From NCBI GenBank assembly GCA_013215805.1, contig JABSQM010000001.1, positions 35,346 through 99,345 on the forward strand: a stretch of DNA of 64,000 bases. The letters are read 5' to 3'. The stretch's first letter is position 1; each line of letters begins with the position of its first letter. The stretch is from Piscirickettsiaceae bacterium (GTDB lineage: Bacteria; Pseudomonadota; Gammaproteobacteria; Nitrosococcales; Methylophagaceae). The notes beneath the pieces are model-generated. The model saw only the letters and a list, made by a program, of their open reading frames with translations, was not told where the DNA came from and did no database searches. Shown here one piece after another: positions 62,262-63,137 of this stretch. The position numbers and the translations under genes were made by a program.

Positions 62262-62645
62262 TCATACATGTTTAATGTAACTAAGCATCTCTTCTTCATT
62301 GAAGAATAATATCAAGCTGCGTTGTATAAGTACGTTCTGAATATATATATTCCAAATGTATTCCCAGCGGTATTTATCTGATTTATCTGATTTATCTGAT
62401 TTATCTGATTTATCTGATTTATCTGATTTATCTGATTTATCTGATTTATTAATCATTAATGGTTGTCCTATGATATAGGTTACCTGGGTTTTAGTCATGC
62501 CGGTCTTTATCTTATTGATCATAATCTGAGTGACAATCTTACCTTGATGAGCACCGGTGATATATTGGCCAGGTTCTGCATACTTATCGCAGGCACTAAT
62601 TAGTAAAACTAAGATGAATAAGGTATGAATTAAAGTAATGTTCAT
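62262..62645 (-). CDS. bamE: Outer-membrane assembly lipoprotein BamE with a Lys-Ser-Asp repeat insert
   Basis: Small lipoprotein of the beta-barrel assembly machine. It has 127 residues: a signal peptide ending in the lipobox LISAC (Cys19), then the SmpA/OmlA domain with KIKTGMTKTQVTYIIGQPLM near 45-64 and RWEYIW near 93. Between GQPLMIN and YRWEY, where E. coli BamE has only a few loop residues, there are eight consecutive Lys-Ser-Asp triplets (residues 67-90), encoded by perfect 9-bp repeats. The rest of the fold appears intact. It is divergent from fur, 81 bases apart, the usual arrangement. Confidence 0.92.
   Translation of the reverse strand: MNITLIHTLFILVLLISACDKYAEPGQYITGAHQGKIVTQIMINKIKTGMTKTQVTYIIGQPLMINKSDKSDKSDKSDKSDKSDKSDKSDKYRWEYIWNIYIQNVLIQRSLILFFNEEEMLSYIKHV
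62372..62449. repeat. 9-bp tandem repeat inside bamE (8 perfect copies plus a partial one)
   Basis: On the plus strand the unit ATTTATCTG repeats eight times without a mismatch at 62372-62443, followed by a partial unit. On the coding strand each unit gives one Lys-Ser-Asp. A unit of nine bases keeps the frame, so gain or loss of copies would change only loop length. Confidence 0.97.
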
Positions 62646-62726
62646 TGCAGTATTAAGTTTATGTAGTTAATTATGAGTAAATTGAGATGATACTCTAATG
62701 ACTCAATTTTGACGAGGTTGCCAATT

Positions 62727-63137
62727 ATGGAAAGTCAGGATTTAAGAAAGGCAGGGTTAAAAGTTACTTTGCCTAGATTGAAAGTATTAGAAATTTTAGA
62801 AAATTCAGAACAGAGACATTTAAGCGCTGAAGATGTTTATAAGGCATTACTTGTGATGGGGGAGGAAATTGGATTAGCTACTGTTTATCGTGTATTAACT
62901 CAATTTGAAGATGCAGGTTTGATTTCACGCTTATGCATTGATGGTGGGCATGCTGTTTTTGAATTAGAGGATGGTACACACCATGATCATTTACTATGTG
63001 TACGTTGCAATCATATTGAGGAATTTACCGATAGTATTATAGAGCAACGTCAACAGGCAATTGCTATTAAAAAGGGCTTTGAAATGACCGATCATAGTTT
63101 GTATATATATGGAATTTGTAAAAACTGTCAGAAATGA
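62727..63137 (+). CDS. fur: Ferric uptake regulator Fur
   Basis: Iron-responsive DNA-binding repressor. About 136 residues from ATG 62727; an in-frame TTG at 62709 would add six residues and is unlikely. The winged-helix domain (LRKAGLKVTLPRLKVLEIL, then GLATVYRVLTQFEDAGLI) is followed by the dimerisation domain with metal-binding HHDHLLCVRCNHIEEF near 85-100. A second CxxC lies at the end (ICKNCQ). It is divergent from bamE, as fur and omlA are in Pseudomonas. I see no convincing Fur box in the 81-base gap. Confidence 0.96.
   Translation: MESQDLRKAGLKVTLPRLKVLEILENSEQRHLSAEDVYKALLVMGEEIGLATVYRVLTQFEDAGLISRLCIDGGHAVFELEDGTHHDHLLCVRCNHIEEFTDSIIEQRQQAIAIKKGFEMTDHSLYIYGICKNCQK

Follow-up and report, generated by a model that had tools for sequence, protein, structure and literature searches.

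A probably young in-frame minisatellite in bamE of a reduced Methylophagaceae genome, with a likely origin in slipped-strand mispairing

The bamE gene of a Methylophagaceae bacterium carries a perfect tandem array of a 9-bp unit that encodes eight consecutive Lys-Ser-Asp (KSD) triplets. The array was found at positions 62372-62449 of the window, by which we mean the whole 64,000-nucleotide stretch of DNA that was analyzed. We consider it likely that this is a young in-frame minisatellite, generated by RecA-independent slippage and persisting under weak selection on BamE. TRF reported 8.7 copies of period 9 with 100% match and no indels, and its score of 156 is the strongest by far in the window (the next best is 50). 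Read in the coding sense, the maximal period-9 run is 78 bp, namely (ATAAATCAG)x8 followed by ATAAAT, or 8.67 perfect copies; on the plus strand the unit reads ATTTATCTG. The eight AAA TCA GAT codon triplets span 62376-62447 on the minus strand and supply residues 67-90 of BamE. A same-period self-match of 69 bases at this site compares with a longest match of 13 in three simulated genomes (order-3 Markov, four large contigs, periods 4-30). A chance origin of the array is excluded, and its perfect tandem units above chance are those of a coding minisatellite and candidate VNTR. A literature search for tandem repeats in bamE found no paper on the subject, its top matches being place names or unrelated words. 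Miscounted copies or a collapse product could in principle yield such an array in a draft genome of 27 contigs, all the more as repeats in bamA of the same genome do break the assembly. We regard such an artefact as highly improbable, since an ordinary sequencing read is longer than the 78-bp array, which lies within a 112-kb contig with in-frame conserved sequence on both flanks.

The gene itself is an open 127-aa lipoprotein ORF (62262-62645, minus strand), divergent from fur (62709-63137, plus strand; Pfam FUR). Its product matches Pfam BamE (PF04355) at 43.3 bits against a curated cut-off of 23.2, in one stretch that covers profile positions 1-34 only. The signal peptide (62589-62645, minus strand) ends in the lipobox Cys19, which is invariant in 52 relatives. 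In the AlphaFold2 model (mean pLDDT 72, pTM 0.53) two helices are followed by a three-stranded sheet, as in the BamE fold; the sheet comprises residues 93-102, 105-115 and 120-126 (62268-62369, minus strand), comes after the insert and is modelled with block means of 83-91. The N-terminal segment 22-34 is of low confidence. The best PDB matches of the model are all BamE chains, with E values down to 2.6e-5 and TM-scores of only 0.42-0.66. Eight perfect copies within bamE, as the initial annotation had described them, are thus borne out by TRF, the open frame and the Pfam match, and so is their in-frame placement between the GQPLM and RWEY segments, which corresponds to the loop between the family's GxPL and RWxY segments. 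The model places the KSD repeat, at low confidence (block means of 60, 51 and 55), in the loop that joins helix 2 to strand 1, and the repeat probably loops out of the protein unstructured. The gene product thus shares its lipobox, its domain, its helix-sheet fold and its fur neighbour with known BamE proteins (SmpA/OmlA; E. coli 5D0O chain E and N. gonorrhoeae 5WAM); it differs from them in the 21 residues added to the loop from helix 2 to strand 1, in a decayed N-terminal motif and in the lack of the C-terminal tail seen in relatives.

A direct search of genome contigs for relatives of this BamE returned none. Relatives were located through the divergent neighbour Fur, which is up to 89% identical to its counterpart in Methylophaga sp. 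42_25_T18 and also resembles the Fur proteins of further Methylophaga-like genomes. BamE was then aligned from the relatives' loci, where bamE lies immediately upstream of fur in the opposite orientation. The KSD insert is absent from the aligned BamE of all 52 family and order relatives, so the relatives do lack it, as the recent expansion proposed earlier would predict. Together with the perfect copies and the small genome, this absence argues for an expansion that is probably recent. The window protein reads GQPLMI-N(KSD)8KY-RWEYIWN, and relatives have the six residues DTFHPN in place of the array segment. The initial annotation counted 24 added residues: the eight triplets are indeed there, and compared with its relatives the protein is longer by a net 21 residues, or seven extra units, because the array replaces the family's DTFHPN. 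Removal of seven units would leave N-KSD-KY, six residues and exactly the family length. As the array ends in a partial copy, a reconstructed one-unit ancestor would contain ATAAAT-CAG-ATAAAT, that is, a 6-bp direct repeat at a distance of 9 bp. The two halves of this putative slippage seed would be the first ATAAAT, at the 5' end of the array in the coding sense (62444-62449, minus strand), and the last, at the 3' end (62372-62377, minus strand).

These features suggest how the array may have grown. The ancestral segment would have drifted to ATAAAT-CAG-ATAAAT with its single KSD unit; the 6-bp repeat would then have allowed the strands to misalign by 9 bp in RecA-independent slipped-strand mispairing, and successive duplications would have added seven units. 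Each step adds three residues, and therefore the bamE frame stayed open while the insert presumably looped out between helix 2 and strand 1. The perfection of the copies supports this route, and so does the 6-bp partial unit at the end of the array, which is expected of a microhomology-seeded duplication. Its persistence would, on this account, follow from weak selection on BamE, which is an accessory subunit, in a bacterium with a reduced genome, impaired repair and a probable restriction to a host; recency, near-neutrality and host restriction are inferred here, as are the individual steps of slippage. Phase variation through this array was considered and rejected. Contingency loci likewise carry tandem repeats within coding sequence; the 9-bp unit of bamE, unlike theirs, is a multiple of three, and changes in copy number would therefore leave the reading frame as it is.

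Relaxed constraint on BamE is visible in the protein itself. Among 39 columns conserved in at least 95% of the 52 relatives, the window BamE departs at 17 (14 substitutions among the 36 aligned residues, and three gaps at the lost C-terminal tail), and no relative departs at more than five. The family motif YRIDIQQGN has become YITGAHQGK, a change that lowers the claim of normal BamE function and leaves the claim of descent where it was. In comparison with a same-genus genome (G001), BamE identity is 48% against a median of 73%, the 20th lowest of 415 ortholog pairs. The initial annotation spoke of a lipoprotein of an essential machine; this holds for the machine, and BamE itself is nonessential in E. 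coli, where it nevertheless coordinates BamA and BamD (PMC6529637). One may therefore ask whether bamE is dying, its product no longer working and the array a step towards loss. The changed near-invariant columns, the missing tail and the dispensability of BamE in E. coli are in keeping with this, as is the fact that mutL and a fumarase-like gene of this genome are already broken. We think it unlikely, although it deserves some weight, given an open frame, a retained lipobox and fold core (W94, Y96, L111, L113 and F115) and a sheet modelled with high confidence. The open frame and the retained core residues make it probable that the cell still produces and uses BamE.

A further reading is adaptive tuning, in which the number of KSD units would adjust contacts of BamE with BamD, POTRA5 of BamA or lipid. 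A 9-bp unit does alter the loop length with the frame unbroken, and a changed loop could be of consequence because BamE contacts POTRA5 and BamD (PMC13067283). In a by-eye alignment, however, changed positions of the window BamE correspond to E. coli I32, N36, D66 and F68, whose mutation leads to vancomycin sensitivity (PMC10135246, Table 1), and the replaced DTFHPN segment itself aligns with D66-F68. Replacement of a segment in which substitutions impair function is more suggestive of lost than of gained function, and the motif upstream of the insert is decayed as well. Nothing supports adaptive tuning of the KSD loop, and we judge it very improbable; the adaptation of BamE to its partners that had been suggested from the sequence thus finds no backing here. 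Neutral slippage, suggested alongside it, gives the best fit, with many invariant residues of BamE lost and perfect arrays, frame-keeping or not, elsewhere in the genome.

The genome of the window is 1.15 Mb in 27 contigs at 34% GC, as opposed to 2.1-2.4 Mb and about 41% GC in two genomes of the same genus. The bacterium is probably host-restricted, judging by its genome size, composition and decay. A census of perfect arrays (period 5-30, at least three copies) found nine in this genome, the bamE array and eight others, or 7.9 per Mb. Their periods of 5, 8, 9, 10 and 15 include both frame-keeping and frame-breaking units. Among relatives, a 319-kb sample of G001 holds one such array (3.1 per Mb), as does a 252-kb sample from others (4.0 per Mb); the excess rests on small counts, nine versus one and one. 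Several of the other arrays can be placed. A ClpX-like protein has N-terminal DKNND repeats encoded by 3.5 perfect copies of a 15-bp unit (contig C23, 205352-205403), and four perfect copies of a 10-bp unit lie inside the fumarase-like gene, which is split over several frames (C23, 17724-19113); both genes are named from sequence. A second perfect 9-bp array, TTAATAAAT in 6.2 copies (C12, 11840-11895), has no ORF of at least 60 aa over it. Longer tandem repeats occur at C19, 587-1102 and C9, 6219-6424 (108/216-bp units; a 28-bp unit in 7.4 copies).

Among the repair genes, mutL is broken by an in-frame TAA, a TAG and a frame change (C6, 85051-86501), and mutS and dnaQ are intact. Neither a family search nor tblastn of the unmasked sequence (17 kb are masked) recovered recA from the window's genome; G001 carries this gene near its mutS. 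Slippage is independent of RecA. E. coli mismatch repair works best at small loops, and for that reason the loss of MutL alone may not suffice to explain 9-nt units. Repeat-rich genomes are known among insect endosymbionts, where they have been linked to the loss of repair genes (Portiera, PMC7821994). Portiera of Bemisia and Singhiella resembles the present case in its reduced genome and in repeats alongside lost repair functions; the genes concerned differ, Portiera having lost dnaQ, which is intact here together with mutS; in the present genome it is mutL that is broken and recA that the searches did not recover.

Open frames from across the bacterium's genome were also matched against 1.12 Mb of the roughly 2.1 Mb of G001, which yielded 415 reciprocal-best pairs; insertions were counted inside local alignments only. 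Internal insertions of at least eight residues were observed in four genes. One of these, a 34-aa "insertion" in GyrA, was rejected, because GyrA appeared to have been paired, at 37% identity, with its paralog ParC. In the remaining 414 pairs such insertions occur in BamA (15 and 25 aa), BamD (17 aa) and BamE (21 aa) only. For all three genes with insertions to belong to the BAM complex, the probability is 3e-7 across the whole set, or 3e-4 when only the 45 least conserved genes are considered; both values are post hoc. BamA, BamB, BamD and BamE all rank among the 7% of ortholog pairs with the lowest identity. BamD (C23, 278461-279327), which is only 43% identical to its G001 counterpart, has 17 and 5 extra residues between GLINFN and DESQRD in comparison with four relatives, and BamA has about 40 extra residues ahead of the KRFMSSEGASF segment. 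A much larger insert of at least 767 residues follows VRGYPQNSLGP of BamA in frame and consists of degenerate repeats of about 29 residues, with units like LQKLFKNQQALRDERLLWDGISPLKNMVE. From alignment with the E. coli VRGF motif, it would lie in extracellular loop 6. It is split over the starts of two contigs (C12, 1-945 and C1, 1-1360), the assembly breaking inside the insert, and its repeats gave no Pfam domain and no PDB structure match. LptD is present at nearly the length it has in G002 (735 against 762 open codons), and BamC was looked for in the window's genome and not found.

This pattern raises the question of whether the BAM complex has been rebuilt as a whole by insertions that changed together, with the BamA region of at least 767 residues in the sixth loop, the BamD loop and the slippage-grown KSD loop of BamE as parts of one co-evolving complex. 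The confinement of the insertions to three BAM subunits, the low identities of four, and the frame of the BamA insert (no stop over 767 codons, with 4 to 56 stops per part in the other five frames) speak in its favor. The open frame is, however, required in any case because the last barrel strands lie downstream, and the repeat units show a pN/pS of 1.12 (bootstrap 0.90-1.42), which is compatible with neutrality. With the BamA inserts in barrel loops and the other two subunits, BamE and BamD, in the periplasm, the pattern does not imply direct contact; the statistical tests, moreover, are post hoc. Correlated relaxation of outer-membrane assembly would explain the same insertions. Remodelling of the complex is possible but unproven, and joint change of all three subunits seems to us a doubtful reading. 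Slippage under relaxed constraint remains the preferred account of the bamE array, and the clustering of insertions in BAM subunits is a feature that plain genome-wide neutrality does not predict.

The bamE array is one more coding minisatellite from slippage in a reduced genome. Bacterial intragenic VNTRs, such as those in the typing genes of Wolbachia (PMC3287509), are alike in their tandem units, their small genome and their attribution to slipped-strand mispairing; the present array differs in that its 9-bp unit sits in a housekeeping gene of outer-membrane assembly. A three-codon unit can lengthen an accessory subunit without breaking it, and the array offers a marker for population studies of this uncultured bacterium. 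The wider BAM pattern, be it relaxation or remodelling, matters more than the bamE array alone. If insertions do concentrate in the BAM complex of one lineage, this bacterium would provide a natural experiment on how much change in length and sequence the core outer-membrane assembly machinery tolerates.
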